The translations under genes and the position numbers were made by a program. A stretch of DNA of 49,487 nucleotides. It comes from Elusimicrobia bacterium LH_S2. Its GTDB lineage: Bacteria > CG03 > SLGR01 > JAGXOG01. Under the pieces are notes generated by a model. It was not told where the DNA came from. It made no database searches and was given only the letters and a program-made list of their open reading frames with translations. The DNA lies in the NCBI GenBank assembly GCA_023660015.1, contig JAGXOG010000004.1, positions 1 to 49,487 on the forward strand, read 5' to 3'. Each line of letters starts with the position of its first letter. The stretch's first letter is position 1. Below are positions 21-22,675 of this stretch, in pieces.

Positions 21-1838
21 CTATTTAATCTTATCCCATAATTCCGCCATCTTTTTTGCGGCAGGTGATTTTGGGGCATATTCAGGCAAAGTAAGTCCTT
101 CTATCTGCGCTTCAGTTATATTTCTGTCATATGGAATCTCGCCCAGAATATCCTGTCCGTATTTTTCTGTCAGTTTAAATATCCCTGAAATCTGTGTAGG
201 ATTCAAATCACTTTTATTCACAACAACCCCTGCTTTCAATTTAAAATGTTTAACTAAATCCAAAACTCTCTCAAGATCGTGTATTCCTGCAACTGTGGGT
301 TCGGTTACAATTAAGACATAATCCACTCCTGTAAGAGAGGCTATAACAGGACAACCTATCCCCGGCGAACCATCATAGATGATTCTTAATGCATTATCAT
401 CAGCAGCCAGTTCACCGGCTTTCTTCTTTATGAGGGTTACCAGTTTACCGCTGTTTTCTCCGGCCGGCGAAAGCTTTGCATGCGCCATAGGCCCGAATCT
501 TGTAGAAGAGTTAAACCAGATGCCGCTTCTCACTTCTTTTGAACTTATGGCCTGAAAGGGACAAACTTCAAGGCAAGCGCCGCAACCTTCACAAGCCAGT
601 TCATTAATTTTGTATTTTCCATCACTTTCATGAGAAACAGCATCAAACTTGCAGATTTCTTCACATCGGCCGCAGCCAGTGCATTTACCTGTTTCTATCT
701 CCATTTTTTCACCGCCTATAAAATAGCCGCTATCTTTTATATCAGGTTTCAAAATAAAATGTAAATCAGCGGCGTCAACATCACAATCAGCTATTGCCGC
801 TTCTCCCCGCGAATAAAAGGAAAATGCGGCAGCTATAGATGTCTTGCCCGTCCCTCCTTTTCCGCTTATAACTAAAATCTGCCGGGCAGAAGGCGCAGAA
901 TGAACAGCGTGCGAGACAGGTTTTTCCTTTTCTCCTTTTAGCTCCTGAACCGAAAAAGACTGCGGCATTTGCCGAACAACTTTTGGCGCTTCCTCAATAA
1001 TATTTTGGGCAATGTCAGTAAAAAGTTTATTATATTTTTCGGTTTCAGATGCGATCAGTTTGCCTTCTGAATATATTCGGGCTATTTCTCTTTCGTCAGG
1101 AATCCGCCCTATAATTTTTAGATTATGTTTGGAACAATATTCCTCAAGTTCTTTCGCTCCGGGATAAAGCCTATTTGCAATAACTAACGGTTTTATACCC
1201 ATTAAAGAACAAAGATCAACAGTAAGTTTAAAATCATGCATACCGAAAGGAGTTGGATCGGTAACAAGAAGTGTAATATCCGCATCTTTAATTGCCTCAG
1301 CTGTGGGGCAAGCCGCGCCCGGGGGAGAATCCAAAAGAGTTACTCCTTCCCGAGGAACACTTTTCACCTTATTAATTACTCTTACTGTTATTGCTCCCTC
1401 GCCGGTATTAATCAGTCCCCAGCGACAATTAATTTGACTGCTCTTTCCCCATTTTAACTTTCCAACCGACCGCTTCTTTTCTACAATCGCGCCGGTCGGA
1501 CAGACTAAAGAACAAGCTCCACATGAATTACAAAGTTCGGGGAAAAATAATATCTTTTCCCCCATTTTAATAACGGCGTTAGAACGGCAAACTTCCTCGC
1601 AGCGTCCGCAAAGCGTGCACTTTTCATCCACTTCAGCCGGAGTGGAAACAAGTATCTCTTCATCACCATATATCTCAGGTTTTAAAAACAAGTGACCGTC
1701 AGGAGCTTCAACATCGCAATCCAGATAAGTAGTTTTTTCTTTCATGCTTTCAAATATATAAGCCAGATTTGTGGAAACAAGCGTCTTTCCTGTTCCTCCC
1801 TTGCCGCTTGCTACAGCAATATTAAGTTTTTTAATCAT
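21..1838 (-). CDS. Fused tandem MinD-type ATPase with two ferredoxin inserts
   Basis: This is two complete MinD/ParA-like P-loop ATPases in one 605-residue chain. Each half carries a deviant Walker A motif SGKGGTGKT (residues 11-19 and 325-333). Each half also has an inserted 2[4Fe-4S] ferredoxin domain: Cys 74, 77, 80, 84 with 103, 106, 109, 113 in the first, and Cys 386, 389, 392, 396 with 416, 419, 422, 426 in the second. Switch-like motifs LLDSPPG and IYDGSPG are visible. A linker of about 40 residues (280-320) joins the halves. In most anaerobes these are two adjacent genes of about 290 codons, so the fusion is notable. Family members are soluble Fe-S ATPases; in the Desulfovibrio ORP cluster paired MinD ATPases accompany a NifX-fold metal protein. 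The ATG overlaps the stop of the upstream hydrolase (ATGA), which suggests translational coupling. It is last in the cluster. The exact role is unknown. Confidence 0.93.
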   Translation of the reverse strand: MIKKLNIAVASGKGGTGKTLVSTNLAYIFESMKEKTTYLDCDVEAPDGHLFLKPEIYGDEEILVSTPAEVDEKCTLCGRCEEVCRSNAVIKMGEKILFFPELCNSCGACSLVCPTGAIVEKKRSVGKLKWGKSSQINCRWGLINTGEGAITVRVINKVKSVPREGVTLLDSPPGAACPTAEAIKDADITLLVTDPTPFGMHDFKLTVDLCSLMGIKPLVIANRLYPGAKELEEYCSKHNLKIIGRIPDEREIARIYSEGKLIASETEKYNKLFTDIAQNIIEEAPKVVRQMPQSFSVQELKGEKEKPVSHAVHSAPSARQILVISGKGGTGKTSIAAAFSFYSRGEAAIADCDVDAADLHFILKPDIKDSGYFIGGEKMEIETGKCTGCGRCEEICKFDAVSHESDGKYKINELACEGCGACLEVCPFQAISSKEVRSGIWFNSSTRFGPMAHAKLSPAGENSGKLVTLIKKKAGELAADDNALRIIYDGSPGIGCPVIASLTGVDYVLIVTEPTVAGIHDLERVLDLVKHFKLKAGVVVNKSDLNPTQISGIFKLTEKYGQDILGEIPYDRNITEAQIEGLTLPEYAPKSPAAKKMAELWDKIK

Positions 1839-2543
1839 AAATCCAGCCCCTTACATTCAGAAAATTCTATAAAATCCTCTCCCCATTCTCGGCGAAACAT
1901 ATCCAACGCTCTATCTGACGTGCAGTGACAAAGACCTAATTTTTTCACTCTCTCTGTCCTCAAATCATCCATGCTGTTTTAATTTCGTTCTCCTGCGAAT
2001 TGTAAAAATGAGCGCCGCCGAAAATGGCGTAAATTCTTTCGCCCGTTATTTCCGCCGCATTGCGCGCCATGGCAACTACACCGGGATGCGCGCAACCGCA
2101 AATCAGGACAGGACCTTTCGCCGAAGAAAGAATAAGCCCGATTTCATCAGGCCCTGTAAGACCTTTAAGTTCATCAGTTGTAATAATACTTTCCATAATT
2201 TGCCTTGCTTTTTTCACCCGGCTTACAGAAACATTCTTTACAGAAATATTTTTCTCAAATTCAGCATTAAAAGATGATGGAATAAAAATATTTGCGGAAA
2301 CTTCTTTCATAAGCAAATCATTTAGACCCCCTGTATGGTCCCCATGGTCATGCGATAAAATTATCGTATCTATACTGTCTGGTGTCACCGAAAGCTTCTC
2401 TAAATTGTGTAAAAGTTTCTGCCGGTCATCGCGGTATCAAAAAGAAGACGACGTTCTCTATCTTCTATCAGGCAGGAAAAACCCCACCCGTTTTCAAAAC
2501 CAGGTAAGTTCAACCGATTATCATAAATAACTTTTATTTTCAT
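1835..2543 (-). pseudogene. Metallo-beta-lactamase-fold hydrolase, COG1237-like, two frameshifts
   Basis: Three frame segments together make one MBL-fold protein of about 235 residues. The start ATG at 2541-2543 gives MKIKVIYDN and runs to LLFDT. The middle frame (about 2432-1973) holds the metal-binding motif HDHGDHTGG and the later CGCAHPG motif. The last frame gives the family-typical tail GLCHCTSDRALDMF and ends at 1835. The first shift lies at about 2431, where adding one G on the coding strand restores the usual DTGD motif. The second is at about 1972, where one added G restores TAMDDL. The end overlaps the MinD fusion start by four bases. This family includes the dihydropterin-related metal hydrolases of COG1237. 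Two independent one-base losses could be early decay or consensus errors; all motifs are otherwise preserved. Confidence 0.85.
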
Positions 2544-2564
2544 AGCGTCATCTATTTTTTTAAC

Positions 2565-3914
2565 TCACAGCTTCTTCAATGCATCCTGGGCGGCTATTAC
2601 CAAATGATATTTTGTGGGAGGCGGAGTAAGATAAGGATGGGTTGCCATCTGAAAAGTTTCCATCTCACTGGCTGTAAAATGTTTCTCTATAGCCATGCTT
2701 ATTATGTTTATTATTTCCCCTGCCGAAAAACTGCCCGCGACTTGGCCACCGATAAGAATACCCGAATCTTTTGAAAAAATAAGTTTAATTTTTATTTTAG
2801 AACACCCCGGCATTTTTCCGGGATGCTTATCGGTCACCTCAGATTCACCTGTTACAAAATCAAAATTCTCTGTTTTCGCTGCATTCTCTGTCAAACCCGC
2901 CGACCCCATAACTAAACCATCTATATATGTGGAAAACACTCCTATGGTTCCGTGAATCTGGTGTATAGATTTCAATTCGTAAAGATTGGTTCCTGCAATT
3001 CTGGCTTCTGCTGTTGCTACAGATGCAAGCTTCACGGGAGCATCTTTCCTTGTAAAAAAATCTCGCTTACCTGCGCAATCCCCGACCGCGAAAACAGAAG
3101 AAGCAGAAGTTCTCATATATTCATCTGTCCATATACCTTTACCTCTGCCTATATCTATCCCTGCTTCACGGGCAAGCTCAGTATTTGGAACATCTCCTAT
3201 TCCGCCGACAACCGCATCAATATCCAGAATGCTGCCGTCAGAAAGAGTCGCTTTCTCAACTGTCTGACGACCACTAAACTCCTTTACCTTAATATCCGTC
3301 ATAATCTTCACGCCTTTGCTCTCTAATTTGCCGCGAGCCAGGGAAGCGAACTCATCATCAAAAGAAAAAGACAAAATCTGAGGCATCATTTCTACCAGAT
3401 AAATATTTTTCTTCTCTTCTGAAGAAGCAAGTTCATCGGCAAATTCAACTCCTATGAAACCACCACCGAGAATCAATACATTTTGAGATTTTTTCAGCTT
3501 ATTCATCATATCTGAAAGATAATTGAAATCTTTCTTAATCGGAAAAATATTTTCAAGTTCAATCCCTGCAACAGGCGGGATCATGGGTTTTGAACCTATT
3601 GCCAAAACCAGCTTCTCGTAAAAATATTCATCGTTAGAATGACCTGTCACTTTTTTCTCCATCTTGTCTAAGGATATGGCCTTGTCCACTTTAATCTCAA
3701 TACCTGATTTTTCGAGAGGCGTCAGTGACATTATATTATCCTCTGGCTTTGCTAAACTTGATACCATATACGGAATCCCGCAAGGAATAACACCCGTTTC
3801 TTTTTCTTTGAGAATAAGAATTTTCTTTTCCGGATAATACTTCTTTGCGGTTCCAGCAACAACCGCACCCGCAGGTCCGCCACCTACAATCAAAAGATCT
3901 GTTGAAATTTTCAT
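2565..3914 (-). CDS. CoA-disulfide reductase / NADH oxidase-like flavoprotein
   Basis: A pyridine-nucleotide disulfide oxidoreductase of about 449 residues. It has an N-terminal FAD motif GGGPAG (residues 11-16), a redox Cys45 in the context IPCGIPY (the single-cysteine arrangement of CoA-disulfide reductases and NADH oxidases), an NAD-binding motif GGGFIGVEFADE, and the second FAD motif AVGDC. A C-terminal dimerisation domain follows, with no rhodanese domain. The chosen ATG at 3912-3914 overlaps the upstream stop as ATGA; a longer reading adds 24 residues of unlikely, Cys-rich sequence. It likely reduces CoA-disulfide, persulfide or polysulfide using NAD(P)H. Next to a cysteine desulfidase-like gene, a role in sulfane-sulfur handling is a reasonable inference. 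Confidence 0.85.
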   Translation of the reverse strand: MKISTDLLIVGGGPAGAVVAGTAKKYYPEKKILILKEKETGVIPCGIPYMVSSLAKPEDNIMSLTPLEKSGIEIKVDKAISLDKMEKKVTGHSNDEYFYEKLVLAIGSKPMIPPVAGIELENIFPIKKDFNYLSDMMNKLKKSQNVLILGGGFIGVEFADELASSEEKKNIYLVEMMPQILSFSFDDEFASLARGKLESKGVKIMTDIKVKEFSGRQTVEKATLSDGSILDIDAVVGGIGDVPNTELAREAGIDIGRGKGIWTDEYMRTSASSVFAVGDCAGKRDFFTRKDAPVKLASVATAEARIAGTNLYELKSIHQIHGTIGVFSTYIDGLVMGSAGLTENAAKTENFDFVTGESEVTDKHPGKMPGCSKIKIKLIFSKDSGILIGGQVAGSFSAGEIINIISMAIEKHFTASEMETFQMATHPYLTPPPTKYHLVIAAQDALKKL

Positions 3915-4978
3915 AATAATCCTCTTTCTTTCTGTCCGACAACATTTTTCACAGCCATCAAAGCAAGTTGTGCTTTTATAGCACAAACAGGCTCGGCTCC
4001 TTCACATTTAAGCCCCTTTAAAGACTTAAATATTAATAGCATATTATCCCTGATTTTTTCAAGACTTAGTTCGTTAAATAAAGACAAACCTGCCGCCAGC
4101 GATGGAGCGGCTTTGCTGGCAAGACCGCAATCGCCTGAAATACGACCCTTGCTGTTAGTAAGATAAATTTGTGTGAGGACAGCAAACAAAACGGAAGGTA
4201 AAATCTTTTTACCTAATTTTTTGTAAAGAACATAAAAAGGTATAGCTAAAAATATACCCTGATTACCCGAACCCGTAACTGTAATAACTTTTAATGAAGC
4301 CCCTTCCATTCTCTTTTTCACAAGCCCTTTCACTCCTTCAAAAATATCAGTGTAATAAAACTTTTCATATAATAGACCTTCTGCTTGAATAAACTTTTCT
4401 ACAATATCTTCCAGTTCCCGATTGCGTTGAAAAACAATATCCATAATCTCACCCATACTCTTAATTTTGTAAACAGTATCTTTTTTTTCATCTATAATTT
4501 TACGGTCTCCGAAGTAAATACTTTTAATGTTATCATGGCGGCCTTCAACAATGACACGCGCTGTTTTACCCCCTGATATAACCCTGACATCCACAAAAAT
4601 CCCGTCGATGTCTTTTACAGAAACTTTCAGCCAGTTTTTACGATTCAGTAATGCTTTAATTTTAAGTTTTTCTTTTTTGCCTAATCCGGCAAAAGGATTA
4701 AACTCTGAAGATTTTGTATAAATACCGCTTGCCGCCGCGGCTTCAACACCCTTTATTTTCATAACAGGAATTTTGACCGTGGATATATTTCTGGAAACAT
4801 CCCGCGAAACCAAAACTTTTGCCTTAAAATCCGAAGGAAATTTTTCTCGTTCAGTTTTATTTAGGAAAATTTCTTTAGCATGTGCGAAAGCAAAAGCTAC
4901 GCTTGCAGGTTCCGTACATCCCACTACTTCATTTATTTCACTTTCCAGCAATTCCCGTAAATTTTTAGAAGAGAACAT
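3911..4978 (-). CDS. L-cysteine desulfidase-like protein (CyuA/UPF0597 family)
   Basis: A 355-residue member of the serine dehydratase alpha-like / UPF0597 family. The signature GCTEPASVA near the N-terminus carries Cys21. Further conserved cysteines are Cys284 in SGDCGLASKAAPS and Cys325/Cys332 in KCEGAEPVCAIKA, matching the Fe-S ligand pattern of L-cysteine desulfidases. Known family members release sulfide, ammonia and pyruvate from cysteine using a 4Fe-4S cluster. It is separated from the DUF364 gene by one base and overlaps the flavoprotein start by four, so the three are probably one operon. It could supply sulfide for cluster assembly; that is inference from context. Confidence 0.85.
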   Translation of the reverse strand: MFSSKNLRELLESEINEVVGCTEPASVAFAFAHAKEIFLNKTEREKFPSDFKAKVLVSRDVSRNISTVKIPVMKIKGVEAAAASGIYTKSSEFNPFAGLGKKEKLKIKALLNRKNWLKVSVKDIDGIFVDVRVISGGKTARVIVEGRHDNIKSIYFGDRKIIDEKKDTVYKIKSMGEIMDIVFQRNRELEDIVEKFIQAEGLLYEKFYYTDIFEGVKGLVKKRMEGASLKVITVTGSGNQGIFLAIPFYVLYKKLGKKILPSVLFAVLTQIYLTNSKGRISGDCGLASKAAPSLAAGLSLFNELSLEKIRDNMLLIFKSLKGLKCEGAEPVCAIKAQLALMAVKNVVGQKERGLL

Positions 4979-4979
4979 T

Positions 4980-5714
4980 TTATCTTTCTCCTTTCAACAA
5001 TGTCAGCATTTTTTTCCCTTTCAGCTGTCTATAATTCGCACCCTGTTTCAAATACTGCAGTAAGACCGCGGGCTCAGATACAGAAGTACCGCTAACAGCA
5101 TCCAACCCGAATTCAAAAAGAATATCTGTTAGGGGCGTAGAAGGACCTAAAATCAACTTGTAGGCTTCCGGTTTTAAATAAGACATTACATCAGCAAAGC
5201 TGTGGTTTGTAAGTGTCGTAGCTGATATTGCCGCAACATCAGCCTCACAAAGAAGTTCTGCTTCATCTTCCTGAGGTAAAATTCCCGGAGCAGAATTTGT
5301 GTCAAAAACCATAAGCCTCTCCACATCTTTTTTTAAAGTTGCGGCAAAAGGAAAATTACCTATTACGGCAAGCGTCTTACCTTTCGCATGCGCTCTTAGC
5401 ACATCCACCGCATTAACCTCTATAAAACGATTTTCCGCAGGAAACGGCACAGCCGAATTGATAGCAGCCATACCAACTGACGCTTCAAGAATATTATCTG
5501 AATAGATGTATTCCGCCAGTTGTTTTACATCCATGCCCTCAAGTTTTCCCGACTCAGTAATACCCCTGCAGCGACCGGAACCGCAAGGCTCCCTTAATGC
5601 ACTGGCAAGACCGTAACGAACAGTTGTCACCGCAACATCAAAAGCGCCAACAAAAACTTTACTCACTTTTATTTCGGGCAAAGACGATATCAATCGCTTA
5701 TAAAGTTTTTCCAT
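4980..5714 (-). CDS. DUF4213/DUF364 putative heavy-metal chelation protein
   Basis: A 244-residue protein matching the DUF364 family (N-terminal DUF4213, then the Rossmann-like DUF364 part). Recognisable features are the N-terminal segment ending GSGRCRGI, the motif IGNFPFA, a central [10 protein letters not shown] segment and the ITTxNH-like TTLTNH, then LILGPSTPL towards the C-terminus. Family members are cytosolic, of unknown reaction, and named for a proposed metal-chelating site found by structural genomics. It lies directly upstream of the cysteine desulfidase-like gene and downstream of a permease remnant that looks like a nickel/cobalt exporter, so a link to transition-metal handling is plausible. 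Confidence 0.85.
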
Positions 5715-5720
5715 AATTTT

Positions 5721-6080
5721 TTATAAATTTCCCATAAATAACAGCATGCCGAATAAGAAAATTACTAATGAACCTGTAATATCCATAATTCTTTCTATTT
5801 TTATTCTCTTTGGCATTTTTTCAATAAAAGTTCCGATTCCTTATTTAGATTTAATTGTTACAACAGCAACAATTGAAATAGTAAGCGCCATGCCCAAAGA
5901 GATAAGAAGCGCCGGAAAAATACCCAAATATAAAAAATGCAGGAAACTCAGAAAAATAAATAAACCGGTCATAATTAAAAGAGGAATGTCTGCTATCATC
6001 AACGAACTGCTTATGACGGCGGAATATCTTCTCAGCGGCGCCAGGCAAAATGTCATTCTCTGCGAGAGGGTAGGGCGCAT
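5721..6080 (-). pseudogene. Remnant of NicO-type nickel/cobalt permease (C-terminal part)
   Basis: One minus-strand frame encodes two or three hydrophobic helices ([18 protein letters not shown], then the small-residue helix [18 protein letters not shown]), a TAA stop, then in the same frame a basic loop and a last helix [15 protein letters not shown]. The order of an SLGMALT helix, a short loop and a final hydrophobic helix resembles the C-terminus of NicO/RcnA permeases. The N-terminal half with its metal-binding His motif is absent, and the in-frame TAA follows TIKSK. The neighbouring DUF364 metal-chelation gene supports the call. It could instead be another small membrane protein; confidence is modest. 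Confidence 0.4.
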
Positions 6081-6089
6081 TTCACATAG

Positions 6090-6246
6090 TCAACGCGTTT
6101 TACGCTCGATATAAGCACCGTACCTGCTCTTAAAAAAAATTCCACCTATTGTAATAATAGATCCGTCACATTCTGCCGGTGTGAGAGAGTTTGTGCCGTC
6201 ACTCTGTCTTAGATGGCATCCGGCGCCGACAGAAAATGCCCCCTCC
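6090..6246 (-). other. Short open frame of unknown nature between methyltransferase and permease remnant
   Basis: About 51 codons are open from just after the methyltransferase stop to TGA at 6090. A strong purine stretch (GAGGAGGGGG) precedes it, but there is no clear start codon. The translation contains TPAECDGSIITIGGIFF and [10 protein letters not shown]. It was not recognised. It could be a domain fragment attached to the broken permease, or chance. Confidence 0.25.
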
Positions 6247-6247
6247 T

Positions 6248-6874
6248 CTATGATTTTTGAGCTTTAACAGCCACAAAACTTCCTCTACCATATCCTTTCT
6301 CAATTTTGTCAATATGCTCTAAATTCTTGTAACTTTCAAACAAAGTCTGAAGAACCTCAAAGTTCCCAAAACCGGAAGATGACAGGAGAGAGAGCATCTC
6401 CCCAGATGAAAAAAAGGTGGCGGATTTATAAAAAGGGCTCTCCTTGCTTATATATTCTTTTCCCATTTCACTGTTCTTATCAATGATACCGGCTATCAAA
6501 AATCCGCCGAATTTTAAAATTCTAACTGCTTCCAATAACGATTTTTCCGCATCATCCACAAAACACAATGTCATCATCAGTAAAATATAATCAAAACTTT
6601 CATCGCCGTACGGCAAATCTTCCGCTGGCGCCAAAGTTGTTAAAATACCTCGCTGTGAAGCTAACTTCAGCATTTTTTCGGAGACATCAACTCCTTCCTT
6701 AATCCCGAGTTCCTGAGCAAATTTACCGGTTCCTACTCCCACTTCAAGTCCCCGCCCCTTTTTAGGCAAGAGGCGACGAAGCAGTTCTACTTCTGTCTCA
6801 TATGCAAATTTATGGTTTTCAAACCAATTATCATAACGGCCGGATAATTTATCAAAAACACTGCTTTTTCTCAT
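6248..6874 (-). CDS. Class I SAM-dependent methyltransferase (UbiE-like)
   Basis: A 208-residue Rossmann-fold methyltransferase. The SAM-binding motif I reads LEVGVGTGKFA, followed by GVDVSEKML (motif II acidic turn), APAEDLPYGDESFD (motif III region) and LLEAVRILKFGGFLIAGI (post-motif III). The length is normal for a stand-alone Methyltransf_11 enzyme. The substrate is unknown. Its ATG is weakly served by a distant GAGG. Its position inside the NifX/DUF364 cluster suggests a metal- or metalloid-related substrate, but nothing in the sequence proves this. Confidence 0.85.
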   Translation of the reverse strand: MRKSSVFDKLSGRYDNWFENHKFAYETEVELLRRLLPKKGRGLEVGVGTGKFAQELGIKEGVDVSEKMLKLASQRGILTTLAPAEDLPYGDESFDYILLMMTLCFVDDAEKSLLEAVRILKFGGFLIAGIIDKNSEMGKEYISKESPFYKSATFFSSGEMLSLLSSSGFGNFEVLQTLFESYKNLEHIDKIEKGYGRGSFVAVKAQKS

Positions 6875-6886
6875 CTAAATTAAACC

Positions 6887-7183
6887 TCAACCGTCATAAA
6901 ACCTATTAAAATAATTTTGTTCCGCGTCCCATTCTTTACCTCGCCTGGAAAATTAGGACCGGTAAACGAAATACTATAATTTAAACAGTAATCAAGCATC
7001 TTTTCATAAGAGACAGTTAGTTTTTTAAATTTAGCTCACAGGATTGTTTTTATGACTCAGGAAATCTGTCCGGATGAAATTCCAAAGCAAGTTTTCCATA
7101 CGCGACTTTTAATTCTATCAATAATATACCATCTCCTAAATCTAGGAAATTCGCAACTTTTCTCAATTTATTATTCAGATTTA
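6887..7183 (-). pseudogene. J-domain mini-protein, frameshifted copy A
   Basis: One frame reads ANFLDLGDG...VAYGKLALEFHPDRFPES, a J-domain with its diagnostic HPD tripeptide, and then stops. Another frame continues with SYEKMLDYCLNYSISF, and a third gives KEWDAEQNYFNRFYDG before TGA at 6887. Joined, they form a small (about 95 residue) J-domain protein with the same plan as the copy at 23775-24090 (HPD, then a DYC-x-Y-x-YSF motif, then an acidic/aromatic FYDxW-like end). At least two frameshifts separate the pieces and no good start codon is visible. J-domains stimulate Hsp70 ATPase; in Fe-S clusters they may assist scaffold unloading. Confidence 0.65.
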
Positions 7184-7186
7184 TCT

Positions 7187-7510
7187 TTAAGTCGTTTTTA
7201 GATATTTCTCCACTGCCTCGCGCACCGTCTGATTCTCGGAATATCCGTTCTCAACCTTAATGCCCATAGAAGTCAGAGCGCTCATTGCATTAGGCCCGAC
7301 AGCACCGGTAAGAACAACTTTGGCACCGCGATCAGAAATCTGTCTTGCGGCAGCAGGGCCCGCTCCGCCTGCCATATTTATACCGCTGTTTGACAGAGGT
7401 TCAAATTTCATGGTCTCCGAATCCACAATCAAGAAATACTGGCACCTACCGAATTTTTCACTTACCCTGGCGCTCATTGACCCGCCGGTGGCCGCTACAG
7501 CTATTTTCAT
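7187..7510 (-). CDS. NifX/NifB-family metal-cofactor protein 1
   Basis: A 107-residue single-domain protein of the dinitrogenase iron-molybdenum cofactor family (RNase H-like fold). It starts MKIAVAATGG, has the family hallmark EKFGRCQYFLIVD, then a GGAGPAAARQISD helix segment and GAVGPNAMSALTSMGI. Such proteins bind or carry metal clusters; the ORP protein of sulfate reducers, which holds a Mo-Cu-S cluster, belongs to this fold. No nitrogenase genes are present, so nitrogen fixation is not implied. Its ATG overlaps the stop of the upstream paralogue (ATGA), so the two are co-translated. Confidence 0.9.
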   Translation of the reverse strand: MKIAVAATGGSMSARVSEKFGRCQYFLIVDSETMKFEPLSNSGINMAGGAGPAAARQISDRGAKVVLTGAVGPNAMSALTSMGIKVENGYSENQTVREAVEKYLKTT

Positions 7511-7899
7511 TTTTCCTCCTTATTTCCGTGATTGCTCACGGATTTGTTCTCACCAGAACCTTTCCCGTCTCCCGGATTACATAGATTCTCAGCTCCTTCA
7601 AGCGTACCTTTTTTCAGTTTCTCAATAACTTCGGCAACAGTGCCGGTTATCCCGATAATGGACTTTATTTTTTTTTCGGCAAAAAGCCCTGATGCCCTCT
7701 GCCCCATGCCTCCGGCAATTATAGCTTTCGCTTTCATATTCCCGAAATACTCCGGCAAAAATCCAGGATTATGCCCGGGGTTTTTTATAACTTTAGTTTT
7801 TATTACTTTACCGCCTTCAATATCAACCACCGTAAATTCCGGACATCGCCCGAAGTGCGCCGATACCATTTCTCCGTCCGTTGAAATAACACATCTCAT
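7507..7899 (-). CDS. NifX/NifB-family metal-cofactor protein 2, with hydrophilic tail
   Basis: A 130-residue paralogue beginning MRCVISTDG, with SAHFGRCPEFTVVD (the family metal-site region) and IAGGMGQRASGLF. After about residue 100 it carries the C-terminal tail common in one subgroup, GAENLCNPGDGKGSGE, with one conserved Cys and several charged residues. It has a strong ribosome site (AAGGAG) placed right after a small hairpin (7912-7928). It overlaps NifX 1 by four bases. Two or more paralogues may form hetero-oligomers around a shared cluster; this is an inference from the multi-copy arrangement. Confidence 0.9.
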   Translation of the reverse strand: MRCVISTDGEMVSAHFGRCPEFTVVDIEGGKVIKTKVIKNPGHNPGFLPEYFGNMKAKAIIAGGMGQRASGLFAEKKIKSIIGITGTVAEVIEKLKKGTLEGAENLCNPGDGKGSGENKSVSNHGNKEEK

Positions 7900-7911
7900 T
7901 TTTTTCTCCTT

Positions 7912-7928
7912 GCCAACTACAAGTTGGC
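7912..7928 (-). promoter_or_regulatory. Small hairpin just upstream of the NifX 2 ribosome site
   Basis: Perfect 7-bp inverted repeat GCCAACT / AGTTGGC with a 3-nt loop. On the coding strand it ends directly before AAGGAG of the NifX 2 gene. It could modulate translation or mark a processing site between the DUF89 and NifX 2 genes. No T-run follows, so it is not a classical terminator. Confidence 0.45.
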
Positions 7929-8004
7929 GTATCCGTCTGGCACAGAGAAAATATCATAGAGATTTTCACCGCATGATCGCCGCCGAACATTCTCACATCT
8001 CCGG

Positions 8005-8925
8005 TTAATAATTATCATTTTTTACTATCTTCTCACGCCTCTTTTTCTTTTTCTTATAAAAAAGTATCGCATCCCCTATGTTACAACCGATATCCCGGGC
8101 AATAACACTGCATTTTGTTTTGAGCATAAAAAATAGAGGCCTTGTGACTTTATTCAAAGCTTCAAAATTCCCCTGGCCTTTACTTATTACTATGTCTGCT
8201 TTTTCAAAAATTTCTAAAAATTCGGGAGAGCAAACAGAAAGTAATGTTCCCGGTGCATGTGAGCCGCTGGAGACTATTTCAGCAGATGCATCAATGCCCG
8301 CGCGCAGAGCATCACCTAAAACCGCGTCGTTAATAACAGGTATTTCTTTAACCGCATAGATGATCTTTCCTCTTCCGTAAATCTCATTTATGCTTTCGAT
8401 AAGGATACGGTCAAAAACAGTTTCACCCGCGTTATCCGCGAGATAGAGTATTGTTTCCGATTTTTTAAGAATTCGCTGAAAGACACTAAAATCAAAAACA
8501 GCATAACTTCCGTTGCTGGACTTTGAAAAATTAGTAATAATTTTTTCGATTTCTTCATCAAGAGAAAATGAATGCTGCGCACCGTAATCTATAATATTAC
8601 CCAGAATAGCAAGCCGGACGGCAGTTTTTAACGGTTCTTCCGAATTAATAACCATTTCTTTCATTCGTCCGTATATTTTTAAAGCAAGATCCGTGCTCCT
8701 GTCTTTCAACGCCTTATACGGGTCAGCCGTTTTTGTGAATCGGTTGACGATAGAATATATAATTACAGCTATCTCCGGTGGAGGACGGTTCATCTCTATC
8801 GACGGCAAAACTGAAGCCAATTCGTCCAGAATAAGTTTCTGTTGTTCTTCCGCTACGCAAGCCAATCTTGATGCTTCAAGTGCCTGACGGTAAAAACAAG
8901 GGATGCAGTCAAGAAAAGTTTTCAA
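8005..8925 (-). CDS. DUF89 / ARMT1-like damage-control phosphatase family protein
   Basis: A 306-residue DUF89 protein. The N-terminal CxxC (Cys7 and Cys10 in DCIPC), the motif DNAGE at 164-168, VKEIPVINDA near 191-201, and KGQGNFE at 249-255 are the subfamily I signatures. These proteins are metal-dependent phosphatases thought to remove damaged or overflow sugar-phosphate metabolites; the CxxC subgroup is found in archaea and anaerobes. The start is TTG at 8923-8925, preceded by an AGAGG sequence 12 bases after the NifX 3 stop, so it is probably co-transcribed with NifX 3 and fur. It ends in a Lys/Arg-rich stretch. Confidence 0.88.
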   Translation of the reverse strand: MKTFLDCIPCFYRQALEASRLACVAEEQQKLILDELASVLPSIEMNRPPPEIAVIIYSIVNRFTKTADPYKALKDRSTDLALKIYGRMKEMVINSEEPLKTAVRLAILGNIIDYGAQHSFSLDEEIEKIITNFSKSSNGSYAVFDFSVFQRILKKSETILYLADNAGETVFDRILIESINEIYGRGKIIYAVKEIPVINDAVLGDALRAGIDASAEIVSSGSHAPGTLLSVCSPEFLEIFEKADIVISKGQGNFEALNKVTRPLFFMLKTKCSVIARDIGCNIGDAILFYKKKKKRREKIVKNDNY

Positions 8926-8939
8926 TCTTCTTTTGCCTC

Positions 8940-9302
8940 TTACAGGCCGCTATGCTTGGTGACAGTTGCTGAATCCGAAAAAGAGATATTCCCTTTTTTG
9001 AAATTTTCCACTGCTTCTTTTACAGTACCCTTAAAATCCGTCGCAATTTTAATGCCCGCAGCATTTAACGTCTTATAGGCATTCGGTCCGACGTTGCCTG
9101 TCAAAACCACACCGGCGCCATGCTCAGTGACAAGTTTCCCGGCACTTATACCGGCGCCGCCTGAAACGGAAGCGGCGGAATTTTCCACCGCTTCAAATTC
9201 CATAGTATCAGAATCCACAATAATAAAATAAGCACAGCGTCCGAATTTCGGGTCGACACTGTCAGCCAAAGTCCTTCCTGTAGAAGTAACGCACAATTTC
9301 AT
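8940..9302 (-). CDS. NifX/NifB-family metal-cofactor protein 3
   Basis: A 120-residue paralogue: MKLCVTSTGR, then DPKFGRCAYFIIVD, the GGAGISAGKLVTEHGAGVV segment and GNVGPNAYKTLNAAGI. It is closest in plan to NifX 1 (the same GGAG and NVGPNA elements). Its ATG overlaps the fur stop (ATGA), which makes it the first gene behind the repressor and suggests it responds to the same metal signal. It ends FSDSATVTKHSGL, a short polar tail. Confidence 0.9.
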   Translation of the reverse strand: MKLCVTSTGRTLADSVDPKFGRCAYFIIVDSDTMEFEAVENSAASVSGGAGISAGKLVTEHGAGVVLTGNVGPNAYKTLNAAGIKIATDFKGTVKEAVENFKKGNISFSDSATVTKHSGL

Positions 9303-9763
9303 TTTTTACCTCCCTTTACACATTCCTCACAGAGACCGTGAAAAACAAGACGCTTTCTCTTGATATTAAAACTATAGCGAGACGACACCTCTTTTGAGAT
9401 TTTATCTAACCCAAATTTCTCAATGTCAATATCCGAACAATCCTGCACTTTTCCGCAGCTCATGCAAATAAGATGAGCGTGCTCTTTTATTTTACCGGCC
9501 GTATATTCATAACGGGCGCAGCCTTCTCCAAACTCGTGTTTTATCAAAAGACCTGTCTTTACAAGCAATTTTAAGGTTCTGTAAATAGTAGTAAGCCCGA
9601 TTCCTGGATATTTTTTATGAATTTCCATATATATGTCTTCCGCACTCAAATGTTTTGAAGAATTACTGACGACTTTAAAGATCGCACGTCGCGGCACCGT
9701 CATACGGCGACCCATTCTTTTTATTTGTGCACCCCAACCTTTACCGCGACGAAAATCATTCAT
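9299..9763 (-). CDS. Fur-family metal-responsive repressor
   Basis: A 154-residue Fur protein with a winged helix (RRAIFKVV, SAEDIYMEIHKKYPGIGLTTIYRTLKL split over residues 26-67), metal ligands in EHAHLIC (His95, His97), and structural Zn cysteines CMSC (100, 103) and CEEC (135, 138). The start is taken as ATG 9761-9763; an upstream ATG at 9814 would add 17 residues derived from the TnpB element's right end and is rejected. The ATG directly abuts the element, so the original promoter and ribosome site were displaced to beyond 11108. It probably represses this cluster in response to iron or a related metal. Confidence 0.9.
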   Translation of the reverse strand: MNDFRRGKGWGAQIKRMGRRMTVPRRAIFKVVSNSSKHLSAEDIYMEIHKKYPGIGLTTIYRTLKLLVKTGLLIKHEFGEGCARYEYTAGKIKEHAHLICMSCGKVQDCSDIDIEKFGLDKISKEVSSRYSFNIKRKRLVFHGLCEECVKGGKK

Positions 9764-9930
9764 GTGACGCTCCACAGAGCTTGCTCTGTGGCTTCTGTTC
9801 AGTTTACTGAACATTCTTTTTCCTGCTTCATTGTCGAAGACACTTCTTCAACTCCACAAGCGTTGATTCGGCTTCGCCCAAGCCTACAAATGTTTATACT
9901 GGCGTTAAAATCTCTATCCAGAGAAACTCC
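9764..9930 (-). ncRNA. Predicted omega RNA of TnpB (3' end of tnpB plus right end)
   Basis: In IS200/IS605 elements the guide RNA of TnpB is cut from the transcript covering the 3' end of tnpB and the right end, followed by a guide taken from flanking DNA. Here that places the scaffold over the tnpB stop and the 9-bp hairpin 9772-9791, with the guide starting at 9763, i.e. the first codons of fur. The 5' limit given is approximate. Confidence 0.35.
9772..9791. repeat. Right-end hairpin of the TnpB element
   Basis: Perfect 9-bp inverted repeat CCACAGAGC / GCTCTGTGG with a 2-nt loop, eight bases after the tnpB stop, as expected for the subterminal palindrome recognised by Y1 transposases. Confidence 0.75.
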
Positions 9931-10944
9931 ACAGTCAGGACAATCAAATTGTCTCTTGTTTAAAGGCATATCTTGAATACAACCGCAGTTTGAGCAAGTT
10001 TTACTTGTTGGGGTAAAACGGTCAATTAAAATGAAATGTTTAAAATTCCATTTTGATTTATACTCAAGTTGTCTTTTAAATTCTGACCATGAGACATCAG
10101 CAATAGATTTAGCAAGATAATGGTTTTTCATCATACCGCTAACATTCAAATCCTCCAGAACAACTCCGTCATATTTGACTATCATATGTGAAGTTGTTTT
10201 GTGAAGAAAATCCTGTCTCACATTCTTAATTTTGGTATGAAGTTTTCTTACCTTCATTCTCTGCTTAAATCTATTCTTACTTCCTTTTTGTTTTTTACTT
10301 AACTTTCGTTGTTCCTTTGCTAATTTCTTTTCATTTTTCTTTAAATGTTTTGGATTATTAATTACTGTCCCATCGGATAATACAGCAAACTTCTCTAAAC
10401 CTACGTCTATCCCTATGATATTATCCTTTTTCTTTTCTTGTTTTTCTATTTTACATTTACATAATACAGAACAATACCACTTATCTCCATCTTGAGAAAT
10501 TGTAATTGATTTTGGTTCCCCTTGAAGAGGCCTATGTTTTATCCATTTCACTTCACCAATTTTTGGAATAAATACAAACTCTCTGCCTAACCTCCATTTT
10601 TGTGGACAGGTAAAACTATCGTTTAGCAAATGTTTTTTCTTGAAAGAAGGGAAACCTTTCTCTTTTTTAAATACCTCTTTTAATGCTTTATCAAATTGAC
10701 GAGCAACCATTTGAAGCGACTGTGAAAATGATTCACTTAAAAATGAATATTCTTTTTTTAACTTTGGTAATAATATAGCCAATTCATGATAAAACTTGAA
10801 TTTACCTGTTTCTTTGTAATAGTCTATATTTTGTTTCAGAAAATAATTCCACAAAAAACGACTATTGCCGCCATGCTGTAATAGCATACATTTTTGCTCA
10901 TTTGTTGGTTTTAACCTGTAACGGAATCCCTTTTGAACTAACAT
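9799..10944 (-). CDS. tnpB: TnpB RNA-guided endonuclease (IS605 OrfB family)
   Basis: A 381-residue TnpB of full length. An N-terminal wedge/REC region (starting FRYRLKPTNEQK) precedes the RuvC-like core. The catalytic triad is visible: Asp180 in IGIDVG, Glu264 in VVLEDL and Asp345 in DRDFNA. The zinc ribbon has Cys317, 320, 335 and 338 (CSNC ... CPDC). Nothing is missing, so the nuclease is likely functional. TnpB cuts DNA next to a TAM using an omega RNA and keeps the element in the genome after excision. AGAGGT lies upstream of the ATG. The Lys-rich middle region is normal for the family. Confidence 0.95.
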   Translation of the reverse strand: MLVQKGFRYRLKPTNEQKCMLLQHGGNSRFLWNYFLKQNIDYYKETGKFKFYHELAILLPKLKKEYSFLSESFSQSLQMVARQFDKALKEVFKKEKGFPSFKKKHLLNDSFTCPQKWRLGREFVFIPKIGEVKWIKHRPLQGEPKSITISQDGDKWYCSVLCKCKIEKQEKKKDNIIGIDVGLEKFAVLSDGTVINNPKHLKKNEKKLAKEQRKLSKKQKGSKNRFKQRMKVRKLHTKIKNVRQDFLHKTTSHMIVKYDGVVLEDLNVSGMMKNHYLAKSIADVSWSEFKRQLEYKSKWNFKHFILIDRFTPTSKTCSNCGCIQDMPLNKRQFDCPDCGVSLDRDFNASINICRLGRSRINACGVEEVSSTMKQEKECSVN

Positions 10945-11081
10945 AAATTATCTACCTCTTGTTTAGAAATTGTATATTTATTTGTCTATTCATATTTAGC
11001 CCCCTCTGCTTGAATGATATAATATATTACTATATTTATTAAATATCAACTCTTTTTTCTGAATATATTCTGCTAATTCAT

Positions 11082-11101
11082 CCCCACCGCAAGCAGTGGG
11101 G
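11082..11101. repeat. Left-end hairpin of the TnpB element
   Basis: Inverted repeat CCCCAC / GTGGGG that continues with a mismatch and GC/GC inside (tip AA). On the coding strand it begins eight bases after the TTGAT pentamer, the position expected for the left-end palindrome of this group. Confidence 0.7.
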
Positions 11102-11268
11102 TGTTCTCATCAAGCTTTTATAACTTTTCCTAAAACTACTCCGATAAATACTTTTTAATAAAGATGAAAACTATTTACAAAAGTATTCTAACGTAAAAAA
11201 TGTTTTACGGTCAACATTATTCTCAGTACCCCGAATATATTGCCATAAACAATTATAGCAGCAATTTT

Positions 11269-11469
11269 TTAATCGGAAGCACTATTATCCTGAGTTTTAG
11301 GGGAAGGCGCTCGTTCTTTGCCGGGCGTACTCTTGGATACTTTTTCCTCTGTGCCTCCGGCTCTTCTGCCCTGACCGGCTCCGCGACGCTCACCCTGATC
11401 CGTTCCTCTTTGTCCTCTGCCCGTTCTCGGGCCTTTTCCCTGCGGACCTGTTCCATCTCCTCCTGGCAT
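11269..11469 (-). CDS. DUF5320-like Gly/Arg-rich small protein B
   Basis: A 66-residue protein starting MPGGDGTGPQGKGPRTGRG, the DUF5320 N-terminal signature (MP-x-GDGTGP-x-G-x-GP-x-TGRG), followed by a Gly/Arg/Gln-rich low-complexity tail. It has a strong ribosome site (AAAGGAGG, 5 bases before ATG). Function is unknown; these proteins recur next to NifX, MinD and Fur genes in anaerobes. It lies behind DUF5320 protein A and before the TnpB insertion. An alternative overlapping frame of 78 codons is Arg/Glu-rich only because of the base composition. Confidence 0.75.
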   Translation of the reverse strand: MPGGDGTGPQGKGPRTGRGQRGTDQGERRGAGQGRRAGGTEEKVSKSTPGKERAPSPKTQDNSASD

Positions 11470-11492
11470 AAATCCTCCTTTCTATACAAAGC

Positions 11493-11516
11493 CGACTGTC
11501 CTTTAAAAAACAGTCG
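11493..11516 (-). terminator. Hairpin between the two DUF5320 genes
   Basis: Inverted repeat CGACTGT / ACAGTCG with a 10-nt A/T-rich loop in the 57-base gap between the two genes. It lacks a following T-run, so partial attenuation or RNA processing is as likely as termination. Confidence 0.4.
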
Positions 11517-11526
11517 ACCTATACAA

Positions 11527-11913
11527 TCACTTTTTCTTTTCTTCAGACGCCTGACCTTCTATCTCTTTAATTCTGTTGTTAACCGCCTTCATTTCATTTT
11601 CAAGCGCCTTTGCTTCATTCTTCAGCAATTCCGCTTCTTGATCGGGCGCTGCCGTCGGTGCATATGGCACCGCATAAGGTGTCTGTCCGTAATACGGATT
11701 AACGCCTCCGGCAAACCTTCTACCAACACCAAAGCCTCTTGCGGCTCCGCGGCGGCCAAAGCCCTGGCCTCTTCGGCTTCCAAGGCCAAAACCTCTGCCT
11801 ACTCCAACAGCCGGATTAGCATAACCCGGCCCGTCAAACCCCGCGCAGTAACCAGCGCTTCGTCCTGTCATTGGTCCTAAACTATTCGGACCTGTTCCGT
11901 CTCCTATTGGCAT
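11527..11913 (-). CDS. DUF5320 protein A with C-terminal coiled coil
   Basis: A 128-residue protein starting MPIGDGTGPNSLGPMTGRSA, then CAGFDGPGYANP (conserved YCAG Cys), a Gly/Arg-rich centre, and from about residue 90 a heptad-rich helix (EAELLKNEAKALENEM) ending EEKKK. This is the complete DUF5320 plan: signature, glycine-rich linker, coiled coil. The ribosome site AAAGGAGG is optimal. A Fur-like box lies 31-46 bases upstream of its start codon. It is the first gene of the Region 1 operon. Confidence 0.85.
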   Translation of the reverse strand: MPIGDGTGPNSLGPMTGRSAGYCAGFDGPGYANPAVGVGRGFGLGSRRGQGFGRRGAARGFGVGRRFAGGVNPYYGQTPYAVPYAPTAAPDQEAELLKNEAKALENEMKAVNNRIKEIEGQASEEKKK

Positions 11914-11943
11914 TTTTAGTACCTCCTTTTACATTATTTAAAA

Positions 11944-11959
11944 AATGACAACCATTTTC
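11944..11959 (-). promoter_or_regulatory. Fur-box-like operator upstream of DUF5320 A
   Basis: The 16-mer AATGACAACCATTTTC matches the Fur core AATGATTATCATTATC at 11 or 12 positions, depending on the consensus variant used. It lies 31-46 bases upstream of the DUF5320 A start codon, where a promoter-blocking operator would sit, and a fur gene lies downstream in the same operon. Confidence 0.45.
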
Positions 11960-12240
11960 ATTAATATTATAGCATTGAAAATAAAATCTGTCAAATACTC
12001 GCATTGTCTCACCAAAAATCTAAATGAAATACTATCGTTGCCTCATTTAAAAATCTAAATAAAATAATTTTACCTAATATATACAAAATTTTCTTTACTT
12101 TGTAAAATTATTTCGCCGTAGTTAATTTTTGACGTTGTCCAAAGTTAATGGACTGATGCCAGTATGTTCTTACCGGAATTTTACCTTTCAACCTTTTTAT
12201 TCCCGGTTTTGTCTTTTTCCGGGCTTTTAACTCCATATTT
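11960..12240. other. AT-rich intergenic stretch with a short direct repeat
   Basis: Contains two near-identical copies of AAAAATCTAAATRAAAT about 32 bases apart (near 12014 and 12046). On the minus strand there is a 42-codon open frame (MELKARKKTKPG...) without a ribosome site, which was not recognised. No structured RNA was found. Confidence 0.3.
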
Positions 12241-12336
12241 TTACGTTCTTTTTTTAGTAACCAAAACTCCTATGGCTACCAGAAACCCATAGGTATAAAT
12301 AGTAAAACCGTAGAATGAAAAAAGCTCAGGATACAT
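12241..12336 (-). pseudogene. lgt: N-terminal stub of prolipoprotein diacylglyceryl transferase
   Basis: The minus frame from ATG 12334-12336 reads MYPELFSFYGFTIYTYG followed by FLVAIGVLV, then stops after VTKKRT. This is the first cytoplasmic segment and first membrane helix of Lgt (typical start MxPxLFxxGxxxIYxYGxMVAxG). The remaining more than 200 residues are absent, so only a 5' fragment is left after a deletion. A functional lgt must be elsewhere, since lnt is present in this window. Confidence 0.6.
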
Positions 12337-12350
12337 AAACTATCCTTTTT

Positions 12351-13109
12351 TTACATTGTGCATAAACTGTCGTCTATAGTTCCATCCGGAAGCATTTCGT
12401 CAGGATGAGGCTCGCCCCTTTCTTCTTTCCAGTATCTTATACATTTTTCCCAGTTTCCCTTGCAGTATCTGTCAATCCATTTTTTATCCAGCATTCCGTC
12501 TTCATAAAAATATTTCATCGGACAACACGGATACCATTTACATTCACTTGTGAAAATCCTCAGTTTTTTATAGTTATCTTCCATACTTAACCTTAATGAA
12601 TCGTTATATAATAGAGTCGCGGGGTGGCGTAAAGGATAAATCTTTATATTATTAGTATAGTGAATCTTGCTAATAACATTTGAAAATTCATTTTTTGTTT
12701 TTGGTATGGGTATTTTATATTTTTTAAAAATATATCTGGTAGCATAATATCCGAGTGTTGAAATTATCTCGGGTTTAACGAATTTTATTTCCTCGTCAAG
12801 ATATATGCTACAAGTATCAATTTCATCCTGTTTAGGCTTTCTGTATTTAGGCAACATACATTTAATAAGATTTGTAATATAAAAATTATTCCTGTTAACA
12901 CCAGCTATCAGGAGTAATTCATCCAATATTTTACCTGACGGTCCGATGAACATCCTGTTTTCCCTGTCTTCGTTTTTCCCCGGAGCCTGAGCAATAAGCA
13001 TAAGGTGGGCTCCATAATCACCTTCGCCGCAAAGAGCGTTTTTCCGGGTTTCAGACAGTCGGCATCTTTTACAGTTTGTTATTTCTTTCCTTAAACTTAC
13101 TATATTCAT
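12351..13109 (-). CDS. Family 4 uracil-DNA glycosylase (Fe-S) with C-terminal extension
   Basis: A 252-residue DNA-repair enzyme that removes uracil from DNA. The N-terminal CKRC (Cys13, Cys16) with later Cys in NLIKC and DTCSIYL give the four 4Fe-4S ligands of family 4. The catalytic loop reads APGKNED and the substrate loop includes FIGPSGKILD; the late motif is RHPAT. After about residue 190 there is a Cys/Trp-rich extension (CKWYPCCPMKYF ... CKGNWEKCIRYW), known as a separate small domain of unknown role in some anaerobe and archaeal homologues. The gene is intact between broken neighbours. Confidence 0.88.
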   Translation of the reverse strand: MNIVSLRKEITNCKRCRLSETRKNALCGEGDYGAHLMLIAQAPGKNEDRENRMFIGPSGKILDELLLIAGVNRNNFYITNLIKCMLPKYRKPKQDEIDTCSIYLDEEIKFVKPEIISTLGYYATRYIFKKYKIPIPKTKNEFSNVISKIHYTNNIKIYPLRHPATLLYNDSLRLSMEDNYKKLRIFTSECKWYPCCPMKYFYEDGMLDKKWIDRYCKGNWEKCIRYWKEERGEPHPDEMLPDGTIDDSLCTM

Positions 13110-13319: not shown

Positions 13320-13883
13320 TTAACACCTCCTGAAATTTAATATATATCCCTGGTTTAAATTATCATCATGCAAAAGTCCTTTTGATAATTTATGTTCCAG
13401 AGAAAAACCGGATTCCACTATTTCCTTTATAATATCTTCTAACTCTACATCGGCTAATTCATCCGAGGGGTAATCGTTTTTGTAATGTTTTGGATAAACA
13501 GAAAAAAAACCTTTCTCTTTTAATACTCTATAAACTTCCATGTAGATAGCCCTCCTATGCCTTTTATCTTCATAATGTATTACATCATAACACAAAATAA
13601 GATCAACTGTATTATCATTTAAAGGGATTTTTGTATCTTCATTTATAAATTCAATATTTTTTATATTGTACTGCCTCACTGTCGCTTTTAATTTATCCAG
13701 AACACCACTGTCTTTATCTAATGCGTAAACTTTACCGTTCTTCCCTACTCTCTTAGCCACGGGAATTGTATAGTGGCCTTCTCTGCAGCCAAAATCCAGT
13801 ATAGTCCAGCTTTTTTTGACTCCAATCTCCTTAAAAAACTCAACCCCGTCTTTTTCAATCCACCTTCTTACTTCACTATTCAT
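13320..13883 (-). CDS. Class I SAM-dependent methyltransferase
   Basis: A 187-residue enzyme. Motif I is LDFGCREGHYT, motif II YALDKDSGVL, and the motif III region is DTKIPLNDNTVDLILCYDV, followed by YMEVYRVLKEKGFFSVY. The start is set at ATG 13881-13883 (MNSEVRRW); a GTG nine bases upstream is also possible. It overlaps the last codons of the trmO remnant. The DFGCREGHYTIPVA context is like arsenite- or quinone-type methyltransferases but the substrate cannot be told. Homologous small enzymes occur with metal-stress genes. Confidence 0.8.
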   Translation of the reverse strand: MNSEVRRWIEKDGVEFFKEIGVKKSWTILDFGCREGHYTIPVAKRVGKNGKVYALDKDSGVLDKLKATVRQYNIKNIEFINEDTKIPLNDNTVDLILCYDVIHYEDKRHRRAIYMEVYRVLKEKGFFSVYPKHYKNDYPSDELADVELEDIIKEIVESGFSLEHKLSKGLLHDDNLNQGYILNFRRC

Positions 13884-14364: not shown

Positions 14365-14382
14365 AATCATACCCGACTTCTG

Positions 14383-21907: not shown

Positions 21908-22038
21908 ATCCCTCTGTTTATTCTTTTACTTTTCTTTACCACGTTAGAAAACCTCGTCTTTTCTAACAGGATTTATAACTTGTAACTGTCTTTATATATT
22001 CCAATCTAATACAATCAAACCGGTTTGTTTCTATAATT

Positions 22039-22545: not shown

Positions 22546-22675
22546 ATCCCTTTTAATATTTCCGGTTCTGGGACTTTATCCAAGGTATTTCAATATTTTT
22601 ACTTTTCTGAGTCGTATTTTAAATCTACTTATATTTTCTGCTAACATTTACTATCTTGCATATAATTCTCCTATG

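Follow-up and report, generated by a model that had tools for sequence, protein, structure and literature searches.

The 49,487-nucleotide stretch analysed here (the window; Elusimicrobia bacterium LH_S2, contig JAGXOG010000004.1) carries on its minus strand, at positions 21 to 11,913, a run of genes that belongs to a block shared by uncultured bacteria, most of them anaerobic, from several phyla. We propose, with a probability of about 0.55, that this block encodes a Fur-regulated line for assembling or delivering an iron-sulfur-type cluster. The line would be related to the orange protein (ORP) complex of Desulfovibrio and would have a sulfide generator of its own; we infer the metal, the type of cluster and the direction of transfer. 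Genomes, loci and contigs are labelled G, L and C, and the window is contig C75 of genome G000 (1.04 Mb, 67% complete). Abbreviations in the following features of the run are metallo-beta-lactamase (MBL), coenzyme A (CoA), S-adenosylmethionine (SAM) and hidden Markov model (HMM).

21-1838, minus strand: MinD-MinD fusion of 605 amino acids, with two ATPase domains of the deviant Walker-A type, both carrying a 2x[4Fe-4S] ferredoxin insert (Pfam CbiA/ParA/Fer4).
1862-2543, minus strand: MBL-fold hydrolase gene, matched by tblastn to the L029 MBL protein in three frames (Pfam Lactamase_B on fragment 1960-2388; HxHxDH retained).
2565-3914, minus strand: flavoprotein resembling CoA-disulfide/persulfide reductases, with redox cysteine in PCGIPY (TIGR03385, 253 bits, under the equivalog cut-off).
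3911-4978, minus strand: L-cysteine desulfidase (CyuA-like) of a cluster-specific clade (PF03313, SDH_alpha/CyuA-type).
4980-5714, minus strand: DUF4213+DUF364 protein, a putative metal-chelation enzyme (Pfam; PDB 3l5o, 3npg).
6248-6874, minus strand: class I SAM methyltransferase (Pfam Methyltransf_11), a cluster member overlooked in the initial annotation of the run.
6880-7186, minus strand: decayed stretch with a J-domain-like remnant (DnaJ HMM, 23 bits at ~7.0 kb; ...LEFHPDRF...).
7187-7510, minus strand: NifX-fold protein 3 (PF02579, 73 bits).
7507-7899, minus strand: NifX-fold protein 2 (PF02579, 70 bits).
8005-8925, minus strand: DUF89/ARMT1-like metal-dependent phosphatase (PF01937, 227 bits; PDB 2g8l; N-terminal CIPC).
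8940-9302, minus strand: NifX-fold protein 1 (PF02579, 81 bits).
9299-9814, minus strand: Fur-family regulator (PF01475, 107 bits).
11269-11469, minus strand: second short DUF5320-like protein (PF17253, 23 bits; cut-off of 27 not reached).
11527-11913, minus strand: DUF5320 Gly/Arg-rich protein (PF17253, 87 bits).

The predicted desulfidase is homologous over its full length to CyuA of M. maripaludis (PDB 9fsl; E=5.4e-34, residues 7-336). In the archaeal enzyme, Cys23 and Glu25 are essential for activity, and Cys287, Cys329 and Cys336 are strictly conserved cluster ligands (PMC12647591). The window protein has equivalents of all of them, namely C21 and E23 (catalytic) and C284, C325 and C332 (cluster ligands). 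Of the 22 clade members checked, 21 or 22 retain these residues, the exception being a truncated, fused gene at L046. A fourth archaeal ligand, Cys289, is not conserved in the clade, and it is not among the strictly conserved CyuA ligands listed (PMC12647591). Thus, the initial identification of a cysteine desulfidase-like protein is confirmed, and the presence of all known desulfidase residues supports the view that the cluster carries a dedicated sulfide-source enzyme, for which sulfide release is predicted.

A scan of a collection of 84,980 species produced 80 loci, of which 22 belong to the subfamily of the window desulfidase and 58 are classical CyuA loci. Members of the subfamily are 35-59% identical to the window desulfidase and form one side of a tree branch with 100/100 support. 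Their NCBI labels cover six phyla (Elusimicrobiota, Spirochaetota, Caldisericota, Verrucomicrobiota, Lentisphaerota and Kiritimatiellota), with some members unassigned. In the L046 gene (L046:9547-11163), the N-terminal 113 residues of a desulfidase are fused in frame to a C-terminal part resembling the CoA-disulfide reductase, beside a FeoB-like gene; the fusion reflects either a deletion or an assembly join.

Neighbourhoods of 21 subfamily loci (mean 13.5 kb) and the 58 classical loci (mean 17.6 kb) were scored by profile HMMs; L028, on a short contig, was omitted from the count, though DUF364 is present there. At least one core partner (NifX, MinD, DUF364, DUF89 or MBL) is found at 17 of the 21 subfamily loci versus none of the 58 classical loci, and at least two are found at 13/21 versus 0/58. 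The P values for linkage (4e-8 for NifX and for MBL, 8e-6 for MinD, 4e-5 for DUF364 and DUF89) are nominal because loci inside the clade are related. Gene order varies among the subfamily loci; thus, the linkage either survived rearrangement or was rebuilt. Parts missing from the clusters of phylum relatives are found on split contigs. The initial annotation had named the lack of a conserved neighbourhood in related genomes as a refuting outcome; the neighbourhood is conserved, far more than chance would give. The check that it suggested was for the families around a fused MinD, and they do cluster in relatives, but MinDa and MinDb are separate genes there and the fused form is seen in the window only.

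Pfam matches and motifs also bear out the family names originally given to the MinD fusion, the three NifX-fold proteins, and the DUF89, DUF364, CoA-disulfide-reductase-like, Fur and DUF5320 proteins. The MinD fusion contains two GKGGTGKT P-loops and four Fer4 motifs, scores 359 bits against the MinDb profile and 320 bits against the MinDa profile, and has a partial NCBIfam MrpORP/MinD match. NifX-fold protein 2 matches residues 265-361 of NF041136 (MrpORP), that is, the NifX domain of MrpORP, with E=3.8e-24, and NifX-fold protein 3 lies in a clade of 11 rows with an SH-aLRT value of 97. The DUF89 protein has the motifs CIPC, DNAGE and KGQGNFE. The CoA-disulfide-reductase-like protein matches PDB entries 5l1n and 8a56 and has a 65% identical counterpart in G011. 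As in the window, the DUF364 gene adjoins the desulfidase gene in G001, G009, G011 and G013. The methyltransferase gene lies between the MinD genes in G011 and G001, with 46% identical counterparts between MinDa and MinDb in L107 and L109. A MinD pair and NifX-fold proteins accompanied by extra families are what the proposal of an enlarged ORP-like cluster had described, and that proposal stands.

Further partners recur at the subfamily loci: Mrp/NBP35, a J-domain protein, a NifU-like scaffold, a second DUF364 paralogue, DUF134, a DsrE protein, a radical SAM protein, a small Cys-rich protein and a protein with six transmembrane segments (6-TM). NifU-like scaffold genes with IscU-type cysteine motifs are present in five loci (L029, L033, L036, L039 and L046), and Mrp and DnaJ-domain genes in several. 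At L029, the Mrp gene directly precedes the counterpart of NifX-fold protein 2, an arrangement resembling a split MrpORP. The highly conserved 6-TM protein (L044:9328-9963; also L027, L036, L037, L039, L040, L042 and L045) has conserved Cys/His residues and a Cys/His-rich tail, belongs to no Pfam family, and gave a model of fair quality (pLDDT 73) with no PDB match at E<=0.001; it is possibly a metal transporter.

NifX loci sampled from other genomes include 16 in which a MinD pair accompanies NifX, frequently alongside Mrp and DUF5320, and the desulfidase is lacking; DUF89, DUF364, MBL, Fur and methyltransferase genes are present in a few of them. On this sampling, the ORP-like core is widespread, the layer of DUF89, DUF364, MBL and methyltransferase genes is optional, and the desulfidase marks a specialised version. 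At one locus of another phylum, L021/L145 (G039:C61), genes resembling an ABC transporter of the Zn/Mn type (permease and substrate-binding protein) lie downstream of Mrp, NifX, a MinD pair and both DUF364 paralogues.

Regulation by Fur is supported as a property of the family, with the window's own box being weak. The site in front of the run is as follows.

11946-11960, plus strand: weak Fur-box-like palindrome (11/14 match).

The initial annotation took this site for a Fur-like box; it is not above chance, as eight such sites were found versus 6.7 expected and 14% of shuffles equal it. Fur control is probable at the level of the family. Six phylum genomes contain five exact matches to the Fur consensus TGATAATNATTATCA, all of them at these clusters: two in G002 and single ones in G001, G013 and G000, of which the G000 site lies in a decayed second copy within the window. 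The exact boxes reside upstream of fur or of the first cluster gene. With up to one mismatch allowed, a reversed control pattern matched once in a single genome and not at all in the other five. Most one-mismatch Fur sites away from the clusters lie within open reading frames (ORFs). In clusters of Verrucomicrobiota, Lentisphaerota and soda-lake genomes, DUF134 occurs in place of Fur.

The genes present, their linkage, the desulfidase clade, its conserved residues and the places of the Fur boxes are observed; the biochemical steps, from sulfide release onward, the metal and the client are deduced. Judging from the position of its box, Fur would leave the DNA at low iron and the operon would be expressed. 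The complete conservation of residues with M. maripaludis CyuA suggests that a CyuA-type [4Fe-4S] enzyme would convert L-cysteine to sulfide, pyruvate and ammonia. The CoA-disulfide/persulfide-reductase-like flavoprotein may hold the sulfur reduced, and the DUF364/DUF4213 protein might, judging from its family, chelate or otherwise handle the metal. Where present, which is in relatives only, a NifU-like scaffold and its J-protein helper would build the nascent cluster, for which NifX-fold proteins and Mrp would serve as carriers. By analogy with Orp3, Orp4, Orp8 and MrpORP of Desulfovibrio, the two MinD/ferredoxin ATPases, fused in the window, would use ATP to load or place the cluster on a client. 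MrpORP passes Fe-S clusters to Orp3 and Orp4 in vitro (PMC6345978).

In a more specific and doubtful form, the cluster would be a separate low-iron-induced assembly pathway of anaerobic bacteria, in which free sulfide from the desulfidase, not persulfide from a desulfurase, feeds the NifU-like scaffold and the chain of NifX, Mrp and MinD, possibly for an undescribed cluster type. In the open literature, subscription papers being outside the scope, we found no paper that links NifX to cysteine desulfidase, or MinD and NifX to ORP. Open papers on DUF5320, and on DUF364, Fur and NifX, included nothing that looked relevant from title and abstract except those on the DUF364 structure and on IssA.

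Several observations weigh against the proposed assembly line. Four of the 22 clade loci (L041, L042, L043 and L047) have no core partner in the stretch covered. Outside the clade, the desulfidase is found at none of the 16 loci with a MinD pair; thus, the core can do without the sulfide source. NifU and Mrp are absent from the window run, and the window copy is partly decayed, with the MBL gene frameshifted, a remnant only of the J-domain gene and no convincing Fur box. Genes of the NifS/IscS and NifU types are usually also present in cluster genomes, so the cluster is not their sole Fe-S system. Finally, plain Fe-S assembly offers no obvious step for DUF89, DUF364 or the methyltransferases, whose presence could point to a more elaborate cofactor that bears a ligand. 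Replacement of the housekeeping Fe-S system was considered, as SufBD is absent from 15 of 18 cluster genomes. It was rejected because SufBD is also absent in phylum members where the desulfidase was not found, and because most cluster genomes have NifS/IscS and NifU genes.

The initial annotation leaned toward a molybdenum-copper (Mo-Cu) cluster. In such a true ORP-type system, sulfide would go into thiomolybdate, and the proteins would make or position [S2MoS2CuS2MoS2]. The MinD/ferredoxin pair and the NifX fold are those of the ORP complex, an ABC-type ATPase gene read from the sequence lies downstream of the desulfidase in L031, and the genomic context of DUF364 includes molybdate and tungstate genes (DUF364 structure paper). 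However, no sigma54-type regulator was seen, and MoeA is missing from 18 of the 22 cluster genomes (several of them incomplete), near-complete phylum members included. MoeA serves molybdopterin, so its absence is only indirect evidence against a Mo-Cu cluster of the ORP type. Nitrogenase (PF00148, NifDK/NifEN) is absent from 21 of the 22 genomes, on which ground nitrogenase cofactor assembly was rejected. Together with the exact Fur boxes, these absences favour iron over molybdenum, and we regard the Mo-Cu assignment as unlikely. An improbable reading that does invoke iron is a store like IssA of Pyrococcus, in which NifX-fold and Gly/Arg-rich DUF5320 proteins would hold thioferrate made with enzyme-derived sulfide. 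IssA is a NifX-fold thioferrate store whose cationic Gly-rich tail is the proposed binder (PMC5524996). DUF5320 is rich in Gly, Arg and Lys, as is a two-cluster ferredoxin at 17872-18213 (minus strand), whose tail has a DUF5320-like composition; a similar fusion at L019 has the reverse order. Nevertheless, the sequences of the three NifX-fold proteins have no Arg/Gly/aromatic-rich tail, and paired ATPases, Mrp and a NifU-like scaffold suit transfer better. Control through a Fur box suggests expression at low iron, and such induction would argue against simple storage.

Alternatively, the desulfidase and flavoprotein would have a part in redox balance or in breaking down cysteine or persulfide, while their MinD and NifX neighbours have a separate job. 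E. coli CyuA ferments imported cysteine, and persulfides can be substrates of CoA-disulfide-reductase-like proteins (PDB 8a56 is named Coenzyme A-persulfide reductase). Yet the linkage repeats over six phylum labels in varied orders and is absent from the 58 classical CyuA loci, and no cysteine importer was noticed at the cluster loci, where no systematic search was made; we give such a division of labour a low probability. Equally improbable is that the product is a cofactor of greater complexity, in which DUF364, DUF89 and the methyltransferases build an organic or methylated ligand for a metal-sulfur centre. The DUF364 structure has been interpreted as an enzyme for a chelator resembling pterin or flavin. 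DUF89 phosphatases recur, as do two methyltransferases, and L036, L039 and L045 have a radical SAM gene. No ligand pathway is traceable, however, and the parts differ between clusters.

The run had been described as a tight minus-strand series with ATGA overlaps. Four-base overlaps do occur at three junctions (Fur/NifX-fold protein 1, NifX-fold protein 2/NifX-fold protein 3, and desulfidase/flavoprotein), but TnpB interrupts the run between the DUF5320 pair and fur, as do gaps at 5715-6247 and 6875-7186. The MBL-fold gene reported earlier is present, but it is frameshifted near 2418 and near 1977 and thus broken as assembled. The DnaJ-domain gene is intact in relatives. Long housekeeping-type ORFs on the window contig are intact, which favours real decay over assembly error. 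The copies at L029, L031, L033, L108 and L109 are better experimental material than that of the window. Features within and beyond the run include the following. The initial annotation did not mention the upstream cluster-type genes (the Cys-rich domain and MT2), nor the fourth NifX-fold protein and the second cluster copy described below.

9799-10944, minus strand: TnpB ORF, IS200/IS605-type, with hairpins on both flanks; outside the system.
12363-12599, minus strand: small Cys-rich domain (CxWYxxCPMKxF...CxGxxxxC...HPDxMLPDGxID).
13320-13892, minus strand: second SAM methyltransferase, MT2 (Pfam; 56% identity over 186 amino acids).

The IS200/IS605-type element (9799-11120, minus strand) sits directly upstream of fur, where relatives have the Fur box, and the real fur start is probably inside ORF 9299-9814, past the element. 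The small Cys-rich domain is a C-terminal fusion to a UDG-fold (UDG-superfamily) protein (12351-13109, minus strand); in L029 and L032 it is a stand-alone gene within the cluster. Pfam has no family for the stand-alone protein, and its structure prediction (pLDDT 58) was unusable. The MT2 counterpart in G011 lies between the DUF364 and CoA-disulfide-reductase-like genes. A divergent fourth NifX-fold protein (26557-26955, minus strand; PF02579, 32 bits) is 62% identical to a G011 NifX protein whose gene adjoins MBL and CoA-disulfide-reductase-like genes. A TrmO/TsaA-like gene is frameshifted (13876-14370, minus strand), and its intact homologue adjoins MinD in L027. A short remnant at 12240-12340 (minus strand), MYPELFSFYGFTIYTYGFLVAIGVLV, may represent the start of a prolipoprotein diacylglyceryl transferase (Lgt). 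An Rfam search of the window gave no matches.

The same genome carries two further copies. At 21160-25475 (minus strand) of the window is a second such cluster, in a more advanced state of decay. It has a perfect Fur box (25461-25475), a fur fragment (25160-25321), the start of a DUF5320 gene, a J-domain piece, a ferredoxin (23216-23401), a thioredoxin (22884-23159) and MinD pieces in broken frames (21638-21907 and 21160-21489). A third copy, L106 (G000:C54:1-8065), has a Fur box matching at 13/14 positions; its Fur, DUF5320, MBL, NifX, Mrp and DnaJ matches are each in one piece, and its DUF89 and MinD genes are split over several frames.

For the ORP-like MinD/NifX clusters of many anaerobes, this variant offers two clues, a dedicated sulfide source and control by iron, which lead to testable predictions of sulfide donation, metal content and low-iron induction. 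If the proposal is true, the CyuA family gains a role in bacterial cluster assembly that complements the sulfur supply shown in Methanococcus.

Among known systems, CyuA of M. maripaludis (9fsl; PMC12647591) shares with the window desulfidase full-length homology, the identical catalytic Cys and Glu, and three cluster cysteines. Nevertheless, the clade is separate, with 22-28% identity to the bacterial classical CyuA loci fetched; its members have ~350 amino acids instead of ~425, and their genomic context is wholly different. IssA of P. furiosus (PMC5524996) has in common with the cluster a NifX fold and an iron-sulfur theme, and the cluster has Gly/Arg-rich partner proteins. It differs in that the cluster NifX proteins lack the cationic Gly/aromatic-rich C-terminal tail and are accompanied by many extra assembly-type genes. 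As in the ISC and NIF systems, some relatives have a NifU-type scaffold, a J-domain protein and an Mrp-type carrier. Unlike those systems, the cluster has a desulfidase, predicted to release sulfide, in place of cysteine desulfurase, of which none was seen in the fetched cluster maps, NifS-type matches being on other contigs. ISC lacks the MinD and NifX parts, and cluster genomes usually retain NifS/IscS and NifU elsewhere.

The ORP complex of D. vulgaris (Orp3, Orp4, Orp5, Orp8 and MrpORP/Orp9; PMC6345978) differs in regulation, as its divergent operons are sigma54-dependent; the window run is one-directional with a fur gene and no activator gene seen, and the regulator of the clusters is Fur or DUF134. 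MrpORP is a fused Mrp-NifX protein, whereas the window has the NifX domain only, Mrp being separate in relatives and in G000:C54. Moreover, the MinD genes are fused in the window, MoeA is missing from most cluster genomes, and the cluster adds desulfidase, DUF364, DUF89, methyltransferase, persulfide-reductase-like flavoprotein, NifU-like and J-domain genes. The shared parts are two MinD-type ATPases with ferredoxin motifs, found in both halves of the 21-1838 fusion; a single-domain, Orp8-like NifX-fold protein, of which the run has three; and a NifX domain whose closest counterpart is that of MrpORP, directly preceded in relatives by the Mrp gene.

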